A DNA stretch of 29,764 bases, taken from IMG/VR virus record IMGVR_UViG_3300006790_000079, positions 1-29,764 of that record; one strand, given 5' to 3'. Each line of letters begins with the position of its first letter. The first letter of the stretch is position 1. Both the position numbers and the translations under genes were made by a program. Below, piece after piece: positions 9,874 through 29,033 of the stretch. The stretch is from a virus. The notes below the pieces were generated by a model. The model made no database searches, was not told where the DNA came from, and saw only the letters and a list, made by a program, of their open reading frames with translations.

Positions 9874-10367
9874 CACAGCGCCTCTGCAATGACCCGCGGC
9901 CGACCGAGGAAGTCCCGGACGGCCCAGGCGACGTTGCGGGTGTGGATGTCGATGTCGGCCGACAGTTCCTCGGCCCGATCGGCGCCGGCCGAGGTGAGAC
10001 GCGAGCCGATCTGACGCTCGGCCAGATCAGCGCCGACGACTGAATAGACCGCGCGATTGAAGCGCATGACGTAGTCGCTGACGCCGTCCACCATGATCCG
10101 GGCCGGCACGGCCGCGAGGCTCGTGTAACCGGCCGCCTCCTGATCGACGCGCCAGTCGGCCAGCGCAGCGGCGACGTCGAGCATCGCCTGGCGAACAGCG
10201 TCGCGCAGTCGATCAGGCGTCACCGTAGTGTCGATGCGGATGGCGTCCCGGACGGCGGTGATGTTCATGTTCGGCCACCAGCCGTCGAACATGACCGCAT
10301 CGGCCGCCGGGGGCGGCGCCGGTGGCTCGGTGTCCGAGTTCGGAGGGTTGAAGACAAAGCCGGACAT
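9873..10367 (-). CDS. L: Head completion/stabilisation protein L
   Basis: 164-residue homologue of P2 gpL (169 residues), which seals the filled head for tail attachment. Family marks are DGWWPNMNITAVRDAIRID, the ALADWRVDQEAAGYTSLAAVPA block (compare the P2 GYSSLADVPA) and FNRAVYSVVGADLAERQ. It closes with AWAVRDFLGRPR. It is separated from M by about 120 bases that contain a strong inverted repeat, and its stop overlaps the X start. Confidence 0.93.
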   Translation of the reverse strand: MSGFVFNPPNSDTEPPAPPPAADAVMFDGWWPNMNITAVRDAIRIDTTVTPDRLRDAVRQAMLDVAAALADWRVDQEAAGYTSLAAVPARIMVDGVSDYVMRFNRAVYSVVGADLAERQIGSRLTSAGADRAEELSADIDIHTRNVAWAVRDFLGRPRVIAEAL

Positions 10368-16943: not shown

Positions 16944-17744
16944 GTGAACGCAACAACCCTCCTGCCTGTAACCCCCGTTTCCCCCGTCGCCCCGTACATC
17001 GGCGGCAAGCGCAATCTGGCGCGGCGCCTGTGCGCCCTTATCGAGGCCACGCCGCACGAGGCCTATGCCGAGGCCTTCATCGGCATGGGCGGCGTCTTCT
17101 TTCGTCGGCGTTCCCGGCCGAAGTGCGAGATCATCAATGACCGCTCCGGAGAGGTCGCCAACCTGTTCCGCTGTATGCGGGCGCACCCCGGCGCGCTATG
17201 CGACCTGATCAGCCTGCAGCTGCAGTGCCGGGCCGACTTTGACCGCGAACAACGCGTGGATCCCACGCATCTGACGGATCTGCAGCGCGCGGCGCGGTTC
17301 GTCTTCCTGCAGAAGGTGGCCTTCGGCGGGAAGGTGACCGGCCGGGACTTCGGCATGTGCCGCGATCGGCCAAGCCGATTCCAGGCGTCGAAGGTCGGGG
17401 CCGACCTGATTGCTGCCGGCAGGCGCCTCGAGGCCGTCGTGATCGAGCAGCTCGACTGGGCCGACTTCATCCGGCGCTACGACCGGCCGGGAATGCTATT
17501 CTACCTCGACCCGCCCTATTTCGCCTGTGAGGGGGACTATGGCCCGGGCCTGTTCGACCAGGGCCAGTTCGAGGTGATGGCTGAGCAGCTGGCCAGCCTC
17601 AAGGGCCGGTTCATCCTGTCGCTCAATGACCGGCCCGAGGTGCGCCGGATCTTCGAGCGCTTCCAGATCGAGGGCGTCGGCACCCACTACAGCCTGCAAG
17701 GCAAGGGAGCGAAGCCGGCGGGCGAGGTGATCATCACGAACTAG
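16944..17744 (+). CDS. Dam-type DNA N6-adenine methyltransferase
   Basis: 266-residue class alpha (D12 family) adenine methylase. The N-terminus has the SAM-binding layout VAPYIGGKRNLARRL, then EAFIGMGGVFF (motif I). The catalytic motif IV is DPPY in FYLDPPYFACEGDYG, followed by HFILSLND-type motif LKGRFILSLNDRPEVRRIF and a final GEVIITN. A helical target-recognition part lies in between (about 80 to 160). The frame is open to a GTG at 16860, so the start is uncertain: GTG at 16860, 16929 or 16944; I use the last, giving VNATTLLPVTPVSPVAPYIGG, which matches how homologues begin. It probably modifies phage DNA against restriction; the recognised site cannot be read from sequence. Confidence 0.9.
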   Translation: MNATTLLPVTPVSPVAPYIGGKRNLARRLCALIEATPHEAYAEAFIGMGGVFFRRRSRPKCEIINDRSGEVANLFRCMRAHPGALCDLISLQLQCRADFDREQRVDPTHLTDLQRAARFVFLQKVAFGGKVTGRDFGMCRDRPSRFQASKVGADLIAAGRRLEAVVIEQLDWADFIRRYDRPGMLFYLDPPYFACEGDYGPGLFDQGQFEVMAEQLASLKGRFILSLNDRPEVRRIFERFQIEGVGTHYSLQGKGAKPAGEVIITN

Positions 17745-18167: not shown

Positions 18168-18368
18168 CTATTCCCGGTCACCGCGCTCAAGATGCTGGGC
18201 ACCGATTTCAAGGCACATCCGACCGATCTCAGACCGTGGCACCCCTCGCTTCTCAGCCAGGATTGATAGTCGATCCTGGAGCGCCACCGGCACTCGAAGG
18301 TTCAGGTGCGGCACTTGGCCTGTCGCAGGGCGGCCGCGACCCCTCCCGGGCTGGATCTGATCACTCAT
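18168..18368 (-). CDS. Ribbon-helix-helix DNA-binding protein
   Basis: 66-residue protein read leftward from the ATG at 18368. After a basic, glycine-rich head (GRGRGRPATGQ) comes a beta strand, VPHLNLRVP, and two helices, VALQDRLSILAEKRG and VPRSEIGRMCLEIGAQHLERG, the pattern of a MetJ/Arc (RHH) dimer in which the strand contacts the DNA groove. Upstream, 45 to 85 bases away, lie two GGGTTACA repeats around a promoter-like sequence, which could be its operators. No SD is visible; in-frame upstream ATGs exist (for example 18407). A role as repressor or Cox-like switch protein is inferred from fold and position. Confidence 0.7.
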   Translation of the reverse strand: MSDQIQPGRGRGRPATGQVPHLNLRVPVALQDRLSILAEKRGVPRSEIGRMCLEIGAQHLERGDRE

Positions 18369-18412: not shown

Positions 18413-18452
18413 GGGTTACAGGGTTGACCGGTGATAGTTTATGGGTTACAAC
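18413..18452 (+). promoter_or_regulatory. Promoter-like sequence with two GGGTTACA operators
   Basis: TTGACC (18424-18429) and TACAAC (18447-18452) are 17 bases apart and read rightward. GGGTTACA occurs just before the -35 (18413-18420) and again overlapping the -10 (18443-18450), 30 bases apart. The second copy lies within AGTTTATGGGTTACAACT, which resembles the operators of the early promoter at 22466. A repressor bound here would block polymerase. There is no clear rightward gene for the next 2.3 kb, so the product may be an RNA. Confidence 0.5.
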
Positions 18453-18533
18453 TAATAATCCCCTCATTTGCGCGCCGCCCACCCAAGGGCCGCGCTTTTC
18501 CCCCCACCTCGCCCGCTGGCTTCGCGTGTCGAA

Positions 18534-18628
18534 TTCCTTGCACCCTTGACAGGGCCTCTGGAGCCCGCCCGGCGCGGCTGGGGTTGGCGTGGGACGGGGT
18601 GCGCGCGCATTGCGTTTCCTTGCACCCT
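18534..18628. repeat. 13-bp direct repeats
   Basis: TTCCTTGCACCCT occurs at 18534-18546 and again at 18616-18628, 82 bases apart, in the gene-free stretch beside the RepA-like gene. With only two copies an iteron role is speculative. Confidence 0.5.
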
Positions 18629-18841
18629 GAGGCCCTTGAGGGGCGCCGCCGGGCTGGAATGCGCTGCCCCTGGCCGTTCGGCAAAATCCTCGACCCCCTC
18701 CCCTTTCGCCGAGCCAGCGACCGAGGAAGCAGGTGGCGGCGGAGGCCGATCATCCGTGGCATGGCGGGTGGGTCGGAGGGCGCGTGTACGCGCCCCCGGT
18801 GTCGGTTGGGGTGTTTTCGCCGCCTTTGGCGGCATCGATCC

Positions 18842-18924
18842 GGGAAATTCTGCGTCGCGCGATCAGCGCGACACCTTTCATCCCTGGGAATTTGCCGTCT
18901 CGCGACCAGCGAGACGCCCTTTTA
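18842..18924 (+). repeat. Tandem 43/44-bp hairpin units; the second is terminator-like
   Basis: Two successive units start with GGGAAATT (18842) and GGGAATTT (18886). The hairpins are GTCGCGC-GATCA-GCGCGAC (18854-18872) and CGTCTCGC-GACCA-GCGAGACG (18896-18916). In the second, a G:C pair of the first is replaced by T:A on both arms, so pairing is kept. The second hairpin is followed by CCCTTTTA and could terminate rightward transcription coming from the promoter at 18424. Confidence 0.6.
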
Positions 18925-18966
18925 TAGATCTGAGGTCCGGATTCTGACCCCTCAGATCATTCACGT

Positions 18967-19605
18967 TCATTCCAGGCGGAACCGGTCGCGGCGGGCCATT
19001 TTGTCGGCGCCGGCGTCACGCACCCGCGCCAGCTGGTCGGCGAGCTCAGGGTGCGCCGCGAGGAACCGCTCTTCGCGGGCCGTGTCGACGTCGGCCGAGG
19101 GCGGCACCCGCAGCTTCGCCACCAGGGCCGCGGCGGCCTTGGGCAGGGCCGTCCAGTAGGCATTGGTCGTCTGCTCGACCTGAGGCCCCCGCACGCCGTC
19201 CCGACCCGTCTCGACATAGCGCCGGATCCAGCCGAGGAAGCCGTGCTCCTTCAGCTGAGCCTTCCAGACGTGGATCATGCGCACCGGCACGTTCCGCTGT
19301 TTGGCCAGCCACGCGGCCGACGGCTCGACCCGGCCGCCGTATTTGGCCGCCATGTTCAGCAGCAGGCGATAGAGGCCGATCGCCCCGTGACTGATTGTGC
19401 CCTTGGCGCCCCAGCGCTGGCCGGGCTTGCGGAGGCCCTCCTGGTAGAGCTCAAGCGCAAGAAGGCGGCGGCGCGCCTCGGCTTTCGGCAGAGGTTTCCA
19501 GTCCGTCCGGGTCGCGGGGCGGCTGCGCCGGCGAACGGGCTGCAGGGTACGGCGGTGCTGGGCCTCGCGCCGGCGATGGCTGTGATCGATCGGAACGGCG
19601 GTCAT
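18967..19605 (-). CDS. RepA-like winged-helix protein, possible replication initiator
   Basis: 212-residue protein. After a basic head comes TDWKPLPKAEARRRLLALELYQEG, then WGAKGTISHGAIGLYRLLLNMAAKYGGRVEPSAAWLAKQRNVPVRMIHVWKAQLKEHGFLGWIRR, a winged-helix unit (strand, helix, PS..WLA helix, recognition helix with R-MIHVWKAQLKEHG, wing). This pattern recurs in RepA-like helix-turn-helix proteins of alphaproteobacterial plasmids and integrative elements. No P2 gpA (rolling-circle tyrosine) motif is present here or elsewhere in the window, so it is the best candidate for replication initiation. The ATG at 19605 overlaps the upstream regulator stop (ATGA). A transcriptional regulator is the main alternative. 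Confidence 0.6.
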   Translation of the reverse strand: MTAVPIDHSHRRREAQHRRTLQPVRRRSRPATRTDWKPLPKAEARRRLLALELYQEGLRKPGQRWGAKGTISHGAIGLYRLLLNMAAKYGGRVEPSAAWLAKQRNVPVRMIHVWKAQLKEHGFLGWIRRYVETGRDGVRGPQVEQTTNAYWTALPKAAAALVAKLRVPPSADVDTAREERFLAAHPELADQLARVRDAGADKMARRDRFRLE

Positions 19606-20036
19606 GCTGCCACCTCGCGGTCCAGGGCCGACCGAATTCCGTGGAGGCGAGCTTCGACGCGCTGAAGGATCGGCTCGATCTGGCGCTTCTCATTCTCGCT
19701 GTATTCGCCATCCAGCCCGGCCAACCTGACCAGGCGCTGAGCGGACGCCATGTCCTCGGCGCCCTCGCAGGCCTCGCTCAGGGCGCAGATCGCGTCCGAC
19801 GGCTGGGCCAGCTGGCGCGCGAGGGTGGCGCTGTAGAGACGCCAGTTCTGATGCGCCTCGAGGAAGGCGATGGCGCCGATCGGCATGGTCCGCCCCTTGG
19901 CGGGATCCCGGCAGTCATAGAGGTGGGTGCGCCCCATCTTGAAGGGGGTGTCCTCGAGGAGCTCGAGGCATTTGTCCGGGCCTCCGCAGGCGTCCTGCAG
20001 GGCGCGCGCATAGAAGGCGTGCTGTCGCACGTTCAT
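19602..20036 (-). CDS. Phage regulatory protein, CII (CP76)-like
   Basis: 144-residue protein, start ATG at 20036. The first part reads MNVRQHAFYARALQDACGGPDKCLELLEDTPFKMGRTHLYDCRDPAKGRTMPIGAIAFLEAHQN. A helical start, a hydrophilic turn with a recognition-like helix, a D-P pair and MPIGAIAFLE resemble the P2-type phage CII family, in which MPxDVIADLE is typical. The C-terminal half is helical with an ECEGAEDMASAQRLVRLAGLDG-like stretch. It forms a leftward two-gene operon with the RepA-like gene. Its ribosome-binding site lies in the loop of a perfect 8-bp hairpin. The family assignment is tentative. Confidence 0.55.
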   Translation of the reverse strand: MNVRQHAFYARALQDACGGPDKCLELLEDTPFKMGRTHLYDCRDPAKGRTMPIGAIAFLEAHQNWRLYSATLARQLAQPSDAICALSEACEGAEDMASAQRLVRLAGLDGEYSENEKRQIEPILQRVEARLHGIRSALDREVAA

Positions 20037-20037
20037 G

Positions 20038-20058
20038 GGATTCGTCCTTCACGAATCC
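20038..20058 (-). promoter_or_regulatory. Hairpin presenting the ribosome-binding site in its loop
   Basis: Read leftward, GGATTCGT-GAAGG-ACGAATCC is a perfect 8-bp inverted repeat with a 5-base loop, ending one base before the ATG at 20036. The loop GAAGG is the Shine-Dalgarno sequence, at normal spacing. It could act as a translational switch or, in DNA, as an operator. Both arms contain GANTC, the CcrM methylation site of Caulobacterales. Confidence 0.6.
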
Positions 20059-20612
20059 GCCTGACAACCGGTCAGCTTGGCGCACAGGCTCACGGTCACG
20101 CGGCGAGCGGTGCCGCGCGTTGAGCAAAAGGCGTCCCGATGACCGTCCGTAAGGCGGCCATGGTTGGCTGTGATGAAGGCAAGGCGATCGCGTCGGCCCG
20201 CTGTGGCGGGAGACGAGACGGGCACGTCCCGAGCCGCGAAGGTCCGCCCCCGGCGGGGCAAGGCGACCCGGTGGCCGCGCGGCCGCGACCGCCCTTGAGC
20301 GGCCGACACGCTCGGCTTGCCGATGTGGATGGGCACGTCATGATTGCGGGGGCTGGCTCCGCGACCGGGCAGTCGGTCGGGCCTGTCAGCGCTTCATCCG
20401 CAAAGGGGACCTGTCGCTCGCGGTCCTGGCCAAGGCGGGCGAGAAGGCTTCGCCGCAGGGCCGTCAACCGGCCCCTTGCAAAGCGACAAGAAAACAGTCT
20501 GTTAACCAATGGTACGAATCGGGAACTTGATTCGGTCGGAGTGACAGTCCGAGTCATGGGCGCCGGGGTCCGACGCCCCGCCCTCACCGATTCCGCCCTG
20601 CTGCAAAAGCGA

Positions 20613-20655
20613 CGCCCCGCCGACGTCCGAGGGGAGGCGACGCGTCGGCGGGGCG
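20613..20655. repeat. Perfect 13-bp inverted repeat A
   Basis: CGCCCCGCCGACG (20613-20625) pairs with CGTCGGCGGGGCG (20643-20655), loop 17 bases. Read leftward it is followed by TCGCTTTTGC, so it may terminate leftward transcripts. Confidence 0.65.
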
Positions 20656-20719
20656 CTCAACCGCACCGGTCAGGCGGGCGGCGAGGCTGGGGTGATGCGG
20701 GGTGCGCAGGGCCATGTCA

Positions 20720-20780
20720 GGCAGCCTTGCGGGTCGGCTGCCCCGCCGACGCGCGCATGCGTGTGGACGCGCCGGCGGGG
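20720..20780. repeat. Overlapping inverted repeats C and B
   Basis: GGCAGCC (20720-20726) pairs with GGCTGCC (20736-20742). Directly adjoining, CCCCGCCGACGCG (20741-20753) pairs with CGCGCCGGCGGGG (20768-20780) at 12 of 13 positions. The arms of B share about 11 bases with the arms of repeat A 130 bases away. The two structures overlap by two bases, so they could be alternative folds in the leader of the gene at 20824. Confidence 0.6.
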
Positions 20781-20823
20781 GCCTCTACCTGGCAGGGCTG
20801 ACACACACCAAGGAGAGATTCGG

Positions 20824-21072
20824 ATGGCCTTCGAACTGGAAGCTCGCGTGCGGACTCTTGAGGCCGAGCATCGCGCCCTCGAAGCCGTCACCCTCGACAT
20901 CCTTATGTTGCTGGCTTTCAGAGACCCGACCAATATTCGGCTCCTGCGCGCTGCTCTGCCTGAGATGGCGCGCAAGCACATCCCGGGACCAGGTACGGAC
21001 GACCCGGCCGCAGCCGCCATTGCCGAGCTGCTTGTCAAAATCGAAGAGAGAGTCACGCCGACGGACGAGTAG
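20824..21072 (+). CDS. Small hypothetical helical protein
   Basis: 82-residue protein with a good SD (AAGGAGAG) seven bases before the ATG at 20824. The first half is a heptad-like helix (FELEARVRTLEAEHRALEAVTLDILMLLAF), suggesting a coiled-coil dimer. The second half (DPTNIRLLRAALPEMARKH, then AAAAIAELLVKIEERV) is also helical. There is no cysteine and no membrane segment. The gene converges on the leftward gene at 21074, two bases away, and follows the hairpin-rich stretch. I do not recognise a family; function is unknown. Confidence 0.7.
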   Translation: MAFELEARVRTLEAEHRALEAVTLDILMLLAFRDPTNIRLLRAALPEMARKHIPGPGTDDPAAAAIAELLVKIEERVTPTDE

Positions 21073-21073
21073 C

Positions 21074-21271
21074 CTACTCATCAAGGGACCTCGCTCGATG
21101 GGCGGGGGTGCTTCGCTGGAGTTCGAGGAGAGCGCGCTCCGCACCCTCGCGCCCGAGCGTCGACACTTCCTCCCGCACGATTTCGCGGATCCGCGCCTCC
21201 TGTTTGTCACTGAAGGGCCGGCCGGGTGGGTGCTGAGACGCGGGCGGAACGCCCTTCCAGGTGTCGCTCAT
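21074..21271 (-). CDS. Small hypothetical protein downstream of an XRE regulator
   Basis: 65-residue protein. Its ATG at 21271 overlaps the stop of the upstream regulator (ATGA), so the two are probably coupled. It has a proline-rich start (VPPASQHPPGRPFSDKQ) and one charged helix (EARIREIVREEVSTLGREGAERALLELQRS) that could form a coiled coil. No family is recognised. It may be a partner or modulator of the regulator. Confidence 0.6.
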   Translation of the reverse strand: MSDTWKGVPPASQHPPGRPFSDKQEARIREIVREEVSTLGREGAERALLELQRSTPAHRARSLDE

Positions 21272-21507
21272 GGACGGGCCTCGGGCGCTGCGGCCGTTCG
21301 CACGACGCGGACGTCGTGCAGATCGGGGCGGAGGGAGGCGACGGGCAGGGCGCCGTCGCTGAGCCGGTCGAGGGCTATGGCGAGGTCGGTTGTGAGGCCG
21401 AGGCCGCGCTCAAGGCGCGAGACATGCCCCTTCGACCGGAGGCCCAGCTGAATGGCTAGGTGCTCCTGCGTCCAACCTTTTGATTCTCGCCATCTGCGAA
21501 GCAACAT
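21268..21507 (-). CDS. XRE-family Cro/CI-type regulator (leftward)
   Basis: 79-residue helix-turn-helix protein, almost entirely the DNA-binding domain: LLRRWRESKGWTQEHLAIQLGLRSKGHVSRLERGLGLTTDLAIALDRLSDGALP, with the typical WTQEHLA helix, a recognition helix KGHVSRLERG and a third helix. Its size and lack of a dimerisation domain are Cro-like. It is transcribed away from the larger regulator at 21581, the classical divergent immunity-switch arrangement. The AT-rich interval around 21515 to 21560 (including TTGACT on the leftward strand) probably holds both promoters. Confidence 0.8.
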   Translation of the reverse strand: MLLRRWRESKGWTQEHLAIQLGLRSKGHVSRLERGLGLTTDLAIALDRLSDGALPVASLRPDLHDVRVVRTAAAPEARP

Positions 21508-21580
21508 GGCGGAAGGTTGTGTTAATCGAAACTTTGAGTCAAGCGCGCCGGTTGAGGAATTCGCGAACGACCCAATCGGC

Positions 21581-21952
21581 GTGGTGATTGAGACTGTCCA
21601 AGTGGACGCTATCGATCAGCCCAACTGGTATTTGCAGGAGTGGTTTGGCCACTTCGGCAAGAGGCAGGCCGCCCTCGTCAACGAGCTCGGCTGGGACAAA
21701 TCCAGGGCAAACCACGTTTGGCATGGCAGGCAGCCCTACCGCCGCGACACCGTAAACGAGATCGCCGGCTTCCTGGGCATCCAGCCTTATGAGTTGCTGA
21801 TGTCGCCAGGCGAGGCCATAGCCCTTCGGAGCCTAAGGGACGCCGCGCGCGCAATTGCTGCGAACGGCTCCCAAACGCCGGAAGCTGTACCATCAGGTAA
21901 AGGGCGCAAAACCCCTACTCCTAATGAGACATCCCGCCGTAGGGCCGCGTGA
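21581..21952 (+). CDS. Prophage repressor-like HTH protein (rightward)
   Basis: About 123 residues with an XRE-like helix-turn-helix: QPNWYLQEWFGHFGKRQAALVNELGWDKSRANHVWHGRQPYRRDTVNEIAGFLGIQPYELLMSPGEAIALRSLRDAARAIAAN. The pattern FLxEWF...QxxLVNELxWxKSxANxxWHGRQ...VNEIAxxLxIxPxELLM is frequent in repressors of alphaproteobacterial prophages. The C-terminus is basic and low in complexity (KGRKTPTPNETSRRRAA). The start is uncertain: an upstream ATG at 21506 would overlap the divergent gene; GTGs at 21581, 21584 and 21602 are possible. It is a candidate lysogeny repressor acting on the repeated operators at 22441 to 22495. Confidence 0.78.
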   Translation: MVIETVQVDAIDQPNWYLQEWFGHFGKRQAALVNELGWDKSRANHVWHGRQPYRRDTVNEIAGFLGIQPYELLMSPGEAIALRSLRDAARAIAANGSQTPEAVPSGKGRKTPTPNETSRRRAA

Positions 21953-21986
21953 ATGATCGGCGTCCGTCGTATCGACGGAGGTCACC

Positions 21987-22442
21987 TTGGACGACTTGCT
22001 TTTCCTTTACGAGAGCAAAGACGGCACGATTTCAGAGCGTATCTTATCGCGCTGGCGCGATTTTCCGACCTTCATTATTGGGTACTGCGAGCTGACGGGC
22101 GCCGTACGCAGCTTCAGTAAGCAAAGAATAGTCGAGTGGCTTGAGTTACCTATCGGTGTCTACAAGCCCCACCAGGCCGAGGAGCCGGCACCGCCTCCAG
22201 CGCCAAGGCGAGCGGCGGATATCCTGTTCACCGGCTTCAAGAAGGGCGAGCGCGCGAGGTTAGAGGAGGCGGCGCGCTGTGCTGGGCTCGTGGTCCGGAC
22301 GACCGTTACCAACGAGCTTACCGTCCTTGTGGCTGGCCCCAACGCCGGATGGGCGAAGCTCCAGCGAGCCGGCGAGATCGGAGCCACGGTGATTCACGAA
22401 GAGGATTGCGCTGCGCTCTTCGCAGATGGGATCCTCCCGTAG
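21987..22442 (+). CDS. WYL-like plus BRCT domain protein
   Basis: 151-residue protein starting at TTG 21987, chosen because a perfect GGAGGT SD ends six bases upstream. The N-terminal 55 residues (LLFLYESKDGTISERILSRW, then FIIGYCELTGAVRSFSKQRIVEWLE) match the core of WYL-type domains, ligand or nucleic-acid sensors in regulators. After a proline-rich linker (EEPAPPPAPRRA), residues about 75 to 150 form a BRCT domain: DILFTGFKKGERARLEEAARCAGLVV, TNELTVLVAGPNAGWAKLQRAGEIGATVIHEEDCAALF. It follows the repressor-like gene after 35 bases and its stop abuts the early operators. A role in DNA-damage sensing or repair signalling is inferred only from the domains. Confidence 0.75.
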   Translation: MDDLLFLYESKDGTISERILSRWRDFPTFIIGYCELTGAVRSFSKQRIVEWLELPIGVYKPHQAEEPAPPPAPRRAADILFTGFKKGERARLEEAARCAGLVVRTTVTNELTVLVAGPNAGWAKLQRAGEIGATVIHEEDCAALFADGILP

Positions 22443-22495
22443 TTTCATTTGTCACAACTTTCGGGTTGACGGGATAAGTTTCATTCTTCACAACT
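22441..22495 (+). promoter_or_regulatory. Early promoter with two 19-bp operator repeats
   Basis: AGTTTCATTTGTCACAACT (22441-22459) and AGTTTCATTCTTCACAACT (22477-22495) are direct repeats matching at 17 of 19 positions, 36 bases apart. Each has AGTT-N11-AACT dyad ends. Between them is TTGACG (22466-22471), a strong alphaproteobacterial -35; with 17-base spacing the -10 falls in the second repeat (CACAAC). The rightward early operon begins 26 bases downstream. This looks like a repressor-controlled early promoter. Confidence 0.65.
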
Positions 22496-22520
22496 CCCCC
22501 TCAGATTGAGGGAGAGACCC

Positions 22521-24288: not shown

Positions 24289-24524
24289 TGGCCTGCCAAT
24301 GCCTGAACGAGATCGATGCCGAGCTGGCCGGGCGCAACACCCGCCTGATCAGGACCGTCGTGCTGAGCGGCTATCGCGCCACCGCGACCATCGCCGTCGA
24401 AAAGATCGCCCCGCGCGGCAAGGCGCCGGTGTTCTGCGTCCCGACCTACTGTCCTTTCTGCGGCGTGGCCTATGAGGCCCAGCCTGCCGCGCCTGCCATT
24501 CCGGAGGTCCCTGCCCATGGCTGA
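24288..24524 (+). CDS. Small zinc-ribbon protein
   Basis: 78 residues, ATG at 24288 overlapping the previous stop (TGATG). It begins MACQCLNEID, has a central strand pair (TATIAVEKIAPRGKAPVFCV) and a CPFCGVAY knuckle. The N-terminal CxC with the later CPFCG suggests one zinc site. This short Cys-rich type is common in alpha- and gammaproteobacterial phages; its role is unknown. The SD of the GapR gene lies inside its last codons. Confidence 0.65.
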   Translation: MACQCLNEIDAELAGRNTRLIRTVVLSGYRATATIAVEKIAPRGKAPVFCVPTYCPFCGVAYEAQPAAPAIPEVPAHG

Positions 24525-24792
24525 CGACGCCAATTTCGACGCTTCGCCCGACGTCCTGACGTCGACGGCCCAGGGGCGGCTGCGCTCCGTGGTCGAACGC
24601 CTCGAGCGCCTCGAAGAGGACAAGCAGGCCGTCATGGGCGACATGAAGGAGGTCTTCGCTGAAGCCAAGGGCGAGGGCTATGACGTGAAGGTGCTGCGCA
24701 AGGTGCTGCGCATCCGGAAGCAGGACAAGGCCAAGCGTCAGGAGGAAGAGGCCATCCTCGACCTCTACCTGTCCGCCTTGGGTGAAATCTGA
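24517..24792 (+). CDS. gapR: GapR-like DUF2312 DNA-binding protein
   Basis: 91-residue member of the DUF2312/UPF0335 family. The conserved core is present almost entire: QGRLRSVVERLERLEEDKQAVMGDMKEVFAEAKGEGYDVKVLRKVLRIRKQDKAKRQEEEAILDLYLSALG. In Caulobacter, GapR is an essential nucleoid-associated protein that encircles overtwisted DNA ahead of replication and transcription and stimulates topoisomerases. The long first helix, the GYD turn and the basic second helix needed for DNA contact are all present. GGAGGT SD ten bases upstream supports the ATG at 24517. The phage copy may protect its own replication forks or alter host chromosome topology; that is inference. Confidence 0.93.
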   Translation: MADDANFDASPDVLTSTAQGRLRSVVERLERLEEDKQAVMGDMKEVFAEAKGEGYDVKVLRKVLRIRKQDKAKRQEEEAILDLYLSALGEI

Positions 24793-26533: not shown

Positions 26534-26956
26534 ATGACCGACACTGCCCGAACCCCTCACCCGATCGACGTCCAGGTCGGCAAGCGCATCGCCCGCCTGC
26601 GACTGGCCCGAGACCTCAATCAGTCGCAGCTGGGCGCCGCAATCGGCGTGACCTTTCAGCAGGTCCAGAAGTACGAGAAGGGCGTCAACCGCGTCTCGGC
26701 GTCCAAACTGGTCATGATCGCCGACTTCCTGAAGGTCGAAGTCCAGGACCTTTTTCCGCCGCGCGAGGAAGGCCAGCCCGCCCGCACTGCCGAGCCCTCG
26801 GCTATCGACCAGCTGGCCTCGACCGGCAACGGGCGCGAACTGGCCGGTTTGTTTGTCAGCATGTCACGGGAGCGCCAGCATTCGCTGGTCAGTGTCGCCC
26901 GCGCCATCGCCGGGCCCTCGGCCGGGGAAGTGGCGCGCGAACTCGAGGCCGCCTGA
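26534..26956 (+). CDS. XRE-family transcriptional regulator
   Basis: 140 residues. Residues about 12 to 75 form the HTH: HPIDVQVGKRIARLRLARDLNQSQLGAAIGVTFQQVQKYEKGVNRVSASKLVMIADFLKVEVQDLFPP, nearly the consensus of alphaproteobacterial XRE regulators with the FQQVQKYEKGxNR recognition helix. The C-terminal 60 residues are helical (GRELAGLFVSMSRERQHSLVSVARAIA) and probably mediate dimerisation. Within the early operon it may shut off early transcription or control the integrase. It shares its last base with the next start. Confidence 0.85.
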   Translation: MTDTARTPHPIDVQVGKRIARLRLARDLNQSQLGAAIGVTFQQVQKYEKGVNRVSASKLVMIADFLKVEVQDLFPPREEGQPARTAEPSAIDQLASTGNGRELAGLFVSMSRERQHSLVSVARAIAGPSAGEVARELEAA

Positions 26957-27806: not shown

Positions 27807-28018
27807 GCCAGAAGCCCCTCAGCGCGCGCACCCGCACCGCCCTCGCGACCCGCGCGGTCGAGATGGCCATCGCGGGCGGACAGCACCAGGTGATCATCGA
27901 CGAGCACGGGCGCACCCGCATCTTGCCTTTGGGTGTCGATCTCAAGCAGGCTGACGAGGCCGCGCTGGACGCGGAGATTCGCGGACTGCTGGAAAGCGAT
28001 GGCGATGCTCGACATTAA
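27803..28018 (+). CDS. Small hypothetical protein upstream of integrase
   Basis: 71 residues, ATG at 27803 overlapping the previous stop (ATGA). A basic, serine-rich head is followed by RTALATRAVEMAIAGGQHQVIIDEHGRTRILPLG and an acidic helix, ADEAALDAEIRGLLESDGD. Its end overlaps the start of the integrase by about 14 bases. The position next to the integrase would suit a recombination directionality factor, but no excisionase fold is evident. Confidence 0.6.
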   Translation: MSQKPLSARTRTALATRAVEMAIAGGQHQVIIDEHGRTRILPLGVDLKQADEAALDAEIRGLLESDGDARH

Positions 28019-29033
28019 GGGCGTCCACGTCGTTAAGGCGAAGGGGCGGACCTACGTCTACGCCTGGCGCGGAGGCCCGAGGCTGCTCAGCGAGCCGGGC
28101 ACGCCGGAATTCGTCAAGGAGCTGGCGGATCTGGTCGCCGCCCGCACGACTGGTGACCGCACCAAGATTTCCGGCCTGCTCGCCAGCTATCGCGCGAGCG
28201 ACGACTGGAAAAACCTGTCCGACAAGACCCGCAAGAACTGGAAGCCGTTTCTGGACCGAATCCAGACCCGGTTCGGCGGGCTCAGCATCGGCGCCTTCGA
28301 CCGCCCTCTGATGCGCGTGGCAATCCGGAAGTGGCGGGACGAGATGAAGCACACGCCGCGCCAGGCCGACATGGCCCTGCAGGTGCTGTCCCGGGTCCTG
28401 TCGTTCGGCATTGCCGAGGGGCAGCTGCAGGTCAACGCCTGCACCGGCGTCCCGCGCATCTACAGGAGCGACCGCTCGGAGATCATCTGGACCGACGACG
28501 ATATGGCCGCCCTCGCCAGCAAGGCCTCGACCGAGGTGATGTGGGCAGTTCGACTGGCGGCCATGACCGGACTGCGCAAGAGCGACGTCCTGCGCCTGTC
28601 GTGGTCGCACGTCCAGGGCCACTCGATCGAGATCCGCACCGGAAAGAGTGGCGAGCGGAAAACAGCCGTCATTCCGCTCTACAGCTCGCTGCGCGGCCTC
28701 CTGCAGGAGATTCCCAAGAGGGCCACCACAATCCTGACCAACACGGACAAGGTCAGCTGGAAAACCGGCTTCGACGCCTCCTTCATCAGGGCCAAGAACG
28801 CCGCCGGCGTCGACAAGCACTTCCATGATCTGCGCGGCACCGCTGCGACGAAAATGTTTCTGGCTGGCCTCACCGTGCGCGAGATCGCCGAGATCTTCAC
28901 CTGGTCCGAGGATCACGTCGAGCGGCTGATCAACGTCTACGTCAAGAAGGACGAGCTGCTGCGCGACCGCATCCGGCGCATCGATGAGCTCGAAAGCAGA
29001 ACAGCCAGCGCTCACACTAGGTCCGAGGACTAG
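28005..29033 (+). CDS. int: Tyrosine recombinase (prophage integrase)
   Basis: 342-residue phage integrase. The N-terminal domain (VHVVKAKGRTYVYAWRGG) and a core-binding SAM-like domain (about 50 to 150) precede the catalytic domain. Active-site residues are Arg191 (TGLRKSDV), the beta-hairpin Lys in RTGKSGERK, His274 and Arg277 (HFHDLRGT), Trp300 in place of the second His (FTWSEDHV) and nucleophile Tyr312 (INVYVKK). The start may also be the ATG at 27999. It should integrate and excise the phage at the tRNA-Arg gene to the right. As the last gene of the early operon it is co-transcribed with it. Confidence 0.95.
   Translation: MLDIKGVHVVKAKGRTYVYAWRGGPRLLSEPGTPEFVKELADLVAARTTGDRTKISGLLASYRASDDWKNLSDKTRKNWKPFLDRIQTRFGGLSIGAFDRPLMRVAIRKWRDEMKHTPRQADMALQVLSRVLSFGIAEGQLQVNACTGVPRIYRSDRSEIIWTDDDMAALASKASTEVMWAVRLAAMTGLRKSDVLRLSWSHVQGHSIEIRTGKSGERKTAVIPLYSSLRGLLQEIPKRATTILTNTDKVSWKTGFDASFIRAKNAAGVDKHFHDLRGTAATKMFLAGLTVREIAEIFTWSEDHVERLINVYVKKDELLRDRIRRIDELESRTASAHTRSED

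Follow-up and report, generated by a model that had tools for sequence, protein, structure and literature searches.

A candidate immunity switch with related operators at two promoters, and a separate promoter beside cos, in a P2-like phage

The window, that is, the whole stretch of DNA analysed here, is a complete virus record of 29,764 bases. Its early promoter at 22.4 kb is bracketed by a pair of direct repeats, and a similar element overlaps a second promoter at 18.4 kb, which raises the question of what these elements bind and whether one protein serves both. The initial annotation proposed that a single phage repressor may control the two promoters. Our analysis suggests a different arrangement, to which we assign a probability of about 0.85: a prophage immunity switch uses the 22.4-kb repeats as two of its operators and has a third at a leftward promoter, and the 18.4-kb unit is separate.

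The terminase, portal, scaffold and major head genes of the window are of the P2 type and stand in P2 order (phrog_3746, phrog_68, phrog_73, phrog_70), with a cos downstream of the portal gene, as in P2-like phages with Peduoviridae-type morphogenesis. Close relatives were found in Brevundimonas genomes. At the DNA level, a small gene at 24517-24792 has about 85% identity with part of the genomes of Brevundimonas giant phages, Marchewka and Domovoi among them, and its protein presumably resembles DUF2312/GapR.

Candidate operators, predicted promoters and genes of the proposed immunity region

The two 19-bp direct repeats at 22.4 kb (22441-22459, AGTTTCATTTGTCACAACT; 22477-22495, AGTTTCATTCTTCACAACT) are identical at 17 of 19 positions and offset by 36 bp, and the -35 hexamer TTGACG (22466-22471) sits between them, as the initial annotation described. 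One other 19-bp pair of equal similarity within 60 bp was found in the window (at 9969), and the pair is far beyond chance since no comparable pair occurred in 100 simulated windows. Analysis of the window also revealed a third copy that had not been annotated before (AGTTTCGATTAACACAACC, 21515-21533, minus strand). The core GTT-N11-AAC occurs three times in the window, all three being these operator sites; about 1.7 occurrences are expected by chance, so that the evidential weight falls on their placement in promoters. The window operators are poorly palindromic (three to five of eight positions), below most relatives.

The window has exactly three matches to the pattern TTGAC-N16-18-YACAAC, at 18424 and 22466 on the plus strand and at 21542 on the minus strand, against 0.02 expected. 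All three sequences resemble the Caulobacter RpoD consensus, TTGaCgS / GCtANAWC (PMC8144410). This excess together with the likeness to the consensus makes it very probable that the three sites are promoters. Coordinates of all features are shown in the table.

Features of the window. Promoters are predicted; operator, box and protein roles are candidates derived from comparison.
Feature	Position	Strand	Remarks
Putative ribbon-helix-helix (RHH) protein, 66 aa, candidate binder of the GGGTTACA boxes	18168..18368	-	weak CopG/RHH matches
GGGTTACA box 1	18413..18420	+	upstream of the 18.4-kb -35; missed in the initial annotation; kept in L005
18.4-kb promoter, TTGACC-N17-TACAAC (predicted)	18424..18452	+	points towards cos
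GGGTTACA box 2	18443..18450	+	overlaps the 18.4-kb -10; kept in L005
Probable cos site, GCTTTTCCCCCCACCTCGCC	18494..18513	+	41 bp right of the 18.4-kb site
Cro-like small XRE/HTH protein, 79 aa	21268..21507	-	HTH_31 2.7e-07; relatives have homologues in the equivalent position
Third candidate immunity operator, GTTTCGATTAACACAAC	21516..21532	-	inside the leftward promoter; distance to TTGAC 5 bp
Leftward promoter of the Cro-like gene, TTGAC-N16-CACAAC (predicted)	21516..21542	-	
Proposed lysogeny repressor, about 123 aa, start codon uncertain	21581..21952	+	alignments; structure model
BRCT-domain protein, encoded between the repressor gene and the early promoter	21987..22442	+	phrog_2561 2.2e-22
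Candidate immunity operator, upstream copy at the early promoter, GTTTCATTTGTCACAAC	22442..22458	+	GTT-N11-AAC direct repeat; same position in 17/23 loci
Early rightward promoter, TTGACG-N17-CACAAC (predicted)	22466..22494	+	
Candidate immunity operator, downstream copy at the early promoter, GTTTCATTCTTCACAAC	22478..22494	+	covers spacer and -10
Conserved leader inverted repeat, CTCCCCCTCA-GAT-TGAGGGAGAG	22494..22516	+	directly follows the operator; marks the right boundary of the exchanged segment
XRE regulator	26534-26956		likeness to CdxA/RtrA/TgrL judged by eye
Integrase	27933-29033		
tRNA-Arg	right end of window		

The structure model of the 21581 protein shows a five-helix, XRE-like HTH domain followed by an extra C-terminal helix. 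C.AhdI, SinR and the lambda repressor are among its structural neighbours, with weak E-values that speak for likeness at the fold level only; in Pfam the protein gave only a weak HTH match, and no C-terminal cleavable domain. The BRCT protein downstream is of the stand-alone kind, resembling the end of NAD-dependent DNA ligase, and its gene occupies the position of rex in lambda.

Conserved layout and exchange of the immunity module

Relatives of the repressor were gathered from 390 genomes of the family, and a total of 23 loci, the window included, were scored by a fixed rule; sequences simulated with the same dinucleotide composition served as control. In the leftward promoter, 21 of the 23 loci have an operator that follows TTGAC at exactly 5 bp, compared with 0.65% of simulated sequences. 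At the early promoter, 17 loci have one operator on either side of TTGAC, the two being 34-36 bp apart, as do none of 460 simulated sequences. The initial annotation had named conservation in relatives as a check on the repeats, and this layout is indeed kept. The comparison lends strong support to its view that the repeats serve a phage regulator as operators; that a regulator binds them is what we infer.

Among the relatives the operator ends GTT and AAC are nearly invariant and the inner positions vary. One relative, the L005/L002 prophage (hereafter L005), shares 94% identity with the window between 16.8 and 21.28 kb and about 92% beyond 22.49 kb. The segment corresponding to 21282-22492 is different: it holds homologues of both HTH genes, an unrelated gene in place of the BRCT gene, and operators of the form GTTCA-N7-TGAAC, one in the leftward promoter and two around the early -35. 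The same module is also present in Brevundimonas sp. A19_0 (L011). GTTTGG-N5-CCAAAC occurs at the equivalent places in L003, L004 and L010, L013 and L014 have others, and further inner-base variants include GTTCTATC..GATAGAAC and GTTCGATA..TCGAAC. Nearly invariant ends with variable inner bases are the look of an immunity-operator family with changing specificity, and the number of its natural operator variants is uncommon.

The leader inverted repeat (CTCCCCCTCA/TGAGGGAGAG) is kept in L003, L005 and L010 despite their differing operators, and the swap breakpoint adjoins it. In five further loci (L072, L073, L078, L079 and L080) another operator-like site abuts the ATG of the repressor homologue, for example GTTCGCATCATGTGAAC-ATG, which suggests autoregulation or a leaderless mRNA. 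A search for homoimmune relatives by operator pattern returned 64 viral contigs with a single match each, none with the repeated pair, and a search with the immunity DNA of the window in 131 genomes of the genus returned diverged relatives only, with no relative of the same immunity among them.

Taken together, these observations fit the following scheme. In the lysogen, all three 17-bp sites of the form GTT-N11-AAC would be occupied by the XRE repressor encoded at 21581-21952. At the early promoter the bound repressor would cover both flanks of the -35 as well as the -10, keeping the early operon (22506 onward) silent, and at the leftward promoter it would shut off the Cro-like gene. During lytic growth the Cro-like protein would probably bind the same three sites. 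The module at 21282-22492 is exchanged as a block between relatives, the inner operator bases moving with it, which would give rise to different immunity types among phages that are otherwise almost identical. Binding, repression and the part given to each HTH protein are what we infer from layout and comparison.

The roles of the two HTH proteins might also be reversed, the Cro-like 21268 protein being the main lysogeny repressor and 21581 lytic or accessory. The 21268 protein has the clearer HTH match and its overall divergence tracks that of the operators better (r 0.325, against 0.06 for 21581), but 21581 has an operator region on either side, like cI, the 21268 gene is read from the promoter under repression, like cro, and the operator-like site at the start of 21581 homologues in the five loci fits autoregulation; we consider the reversal unlikely. 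Co-variation between the recognition helix of 21581 and the operators is suggestive (partial r 0.20, p 0.06), with one helix position reaching p 0.008 uncorrected. Assignment of the repressor by co-variation was tried and set aside as not decisive, the two HTH proteins not being separated by it. A further regulator, the XRE gene at 26534, does not vary with the operators and is conserved in L005; it is therefore not the immunity repressor and not tied to immunity type.

The 18.4-kb promoter and the probable cos site

The element AGTT-N10-AACT at 18436-18453, with GGGTTACA at 18443-18450, overlaps the -10 TACAAC (18447-18452) as the initial annotation reported. Compared with the 22.4-kb elements, the spacing is short by one base, and since its ACAACT arm is the -10 hexamer itself, most of its likeness to the 22.4-kb operators is explained. 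L005 aligns with this region at 86%. In L005, AGTT has become CATT and AACT has become AGAT, and no GTTCA-type operator was found in its 18.4-kb region, though all three L005 immunity operators have switched. The 18.4-kb site thus does not co-vary with the immunity operators. The two GGGTTACA boxes with the preceding T are identical in L005 at 18 of 18 positions, against 45 of 63 nearby bases (hypergeometric p 0.006, for a comparison selected post hoc and made with one diverged relative). GGGTTACA is absent at 22.4 kb. An occurrence at 16967 was rejected as a third box; it lies inside a gene and is not kept in L005. Across viral contigs, pairs of GGGTTACA are too common to be informative.

These results speak against the earlier proposal of one repressor for both promoters, under which the 18.4-kb element would be a weaker operator with a core one base shorter. 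In favour of the proposal, the window has three matches to AGTTN{10,11}AACT where 0.13 would be expected, the right arms GTTACAACT and GTCACAACT match at 8 of 9 positions, and the loss of both arms in the heteroimmune L005 is what immunity-type-specific binding would predict. However, the operators detected in relatives keep the 17-bp register from which the N10 spacing departs, the common -10 hexamer YACAAC explains the right arm, no replacement operator is seen in L005, and the better-conserved feature of the region is GGGTTACA, so that shared repression is highly improbable. The 18.4-kb site most likely answers to a protein other than the immunity repressor, judging from this pattern of conservation. 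A weak contact of the immunity repressor in this phage alone is possible, because no relative of the same immunity was found. In the reading preferred here, the 18.4-kb promoter is a separate unit with its own GGGTTACA pair, sharing with the immunity promoters only the host promoter hexamers.

The most likely regulator of this unit, acting through the GGGTTACA boxes, is the putative RHH protein encoded at 18168. Its Pfam matches (CopG_antitoxin 0.0041, RHH_5 0.016, RHH_1 0.025) are all below the Pfam cut-offs. Substitutions relative to L005 are of the coding type (2/2/10 by codon position), and the gene reads away from the boxes, which lie about 45-80 bp from its start and are conserved in L005. 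Among the 75 viral contigs that carry the cos element described below, the RHH gene and the GGGTTACA pair both occur in the same single one, that of the L005 phage. The relatives of 18168 in the 390 genomes are remote ones only, with other upstream repeats.

The element GCTTTTCCCCCCACCTCGCC was found in 75 viral contigs. A portal gene was found in 66 of these contigs, and in 64 of the 66 a P2-type portal gene precedes the element on the same strand within 6 kb; the reverse complement of the element resembles the annotated cosL of P2; on these grounds the element is very probably the cos site. The 75 contigs yield the consensus CGCGCTTTTCCCCCCGCCTCGCCCGCGCGCTTTTNGTGTCGCTTTTGATGCA for P2-like alphaproteobacterial phages, with flanks to about 18546, and its right-hand GTGTCG..TGCA is perhaps a terminase site. 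With the GGGTTACA pair lying only about 40-80 bp from cos, it could be supposed that the pair belongs to the packaging apparatus and is bound by terminase instead of a transcriptional regulator. Nearly all of the 75 phage contigs with the same cos do without the pair, and in the window it brackets the -35 and overlaps the -10 in the manner of operators, which leaves this supposition very doubtful beside control by the RHH protein.

Several readings of the DNA at and beyond the 18.4-kb promoter were considered. A short terminator directly after the promoter (GCGCG..CGCGCTTTT) was rejected, because its bases form the left arm of cos and are conserved as such. For 18431-18960, a coding gene was rejected, as codon-position bias is absent between the window and L005, and for a structured RNA on the same stretch the fold was no better than that of shuffled sequences (z -0.95). 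A terminator-like hairpin is present at 18896-18916. It is conceivable, if rather improbable, that the promoter drives a non-coding RNA through cos to this hairpin, switched by a dedicated RHH repressor on the GGGTTACA boxes; if true, such an RNA across cos would link transcription to packaging or to access to cos. The non-coding stretch 18780-18957 is almost unchanged in L005, with higher conservation than neighbouring genes, and contains two look-alike hairpins (GTCGCGCGATCAGCGCGAC, GTCTCGCGACCAGCGAGAC).

Comparison with known immunity systems

The relatives provide about 20 natural repressor-operator pairs in one fixed layout with varying inner bases. Such a series constitutes a clean set from which to learn how phage repressors change specificity, and it may be useful in predicting mutual immunity among prophages. 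Our analysis also sets the immunity operators apart from the cos-side promoter.

The immunity region of lambda comprises cI, cro, OL/PL, OR/PR and rex, with three operators at each promoter. The window has in common with it the 17-bp operators, a divergent repressor/Cro-like pair with an operator between (21581 on the plus strand, 21268 on the minus strand), a second operator-promoter block across the repressor gene (22442-22494), an accessory gene at the rex position and the block-wise swap of immunity. The lambda gene order is mirrored, running from the Cro-like gene through operator, repressor, accessory gene and two operators to the early operon. Unlike lambda, the window has one operator on the cro side and two on the early side, its proposed repressor of about 123 aa consists of an HTH and a helix and lacks the C-terminal dimerisation and self-cleavage domain of CI, and the region is carried by a P2-like phage.

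The C repressor of P2 binds two 8-bp direct repeats, one on each side of the -10, whose centres are 22 bp apart (PMC4752584). The window shares with the C/Pe system and its O1/O2 sites a direct repeat of the site at the early promoter, P2-type genes and a P2-like cos; unlike them, the window sites are 17 bp long with inverted end triplets, flank the -35 and are 36 bp apart from start to start (34-36 bp across the loci). XRE regulators of the CdxA/RtrA/TgrL kind are reported from Caulobacter and alphaproteobacterial phages (PMC10688885), and the 26534 gene, by eye, resembles them. The immunity family itself is not described in the part of the literature that our search covered. As a lambda-style immunity region in P2-like alphaproteobacterial phages, it is ordinary as a type, and its details are new.
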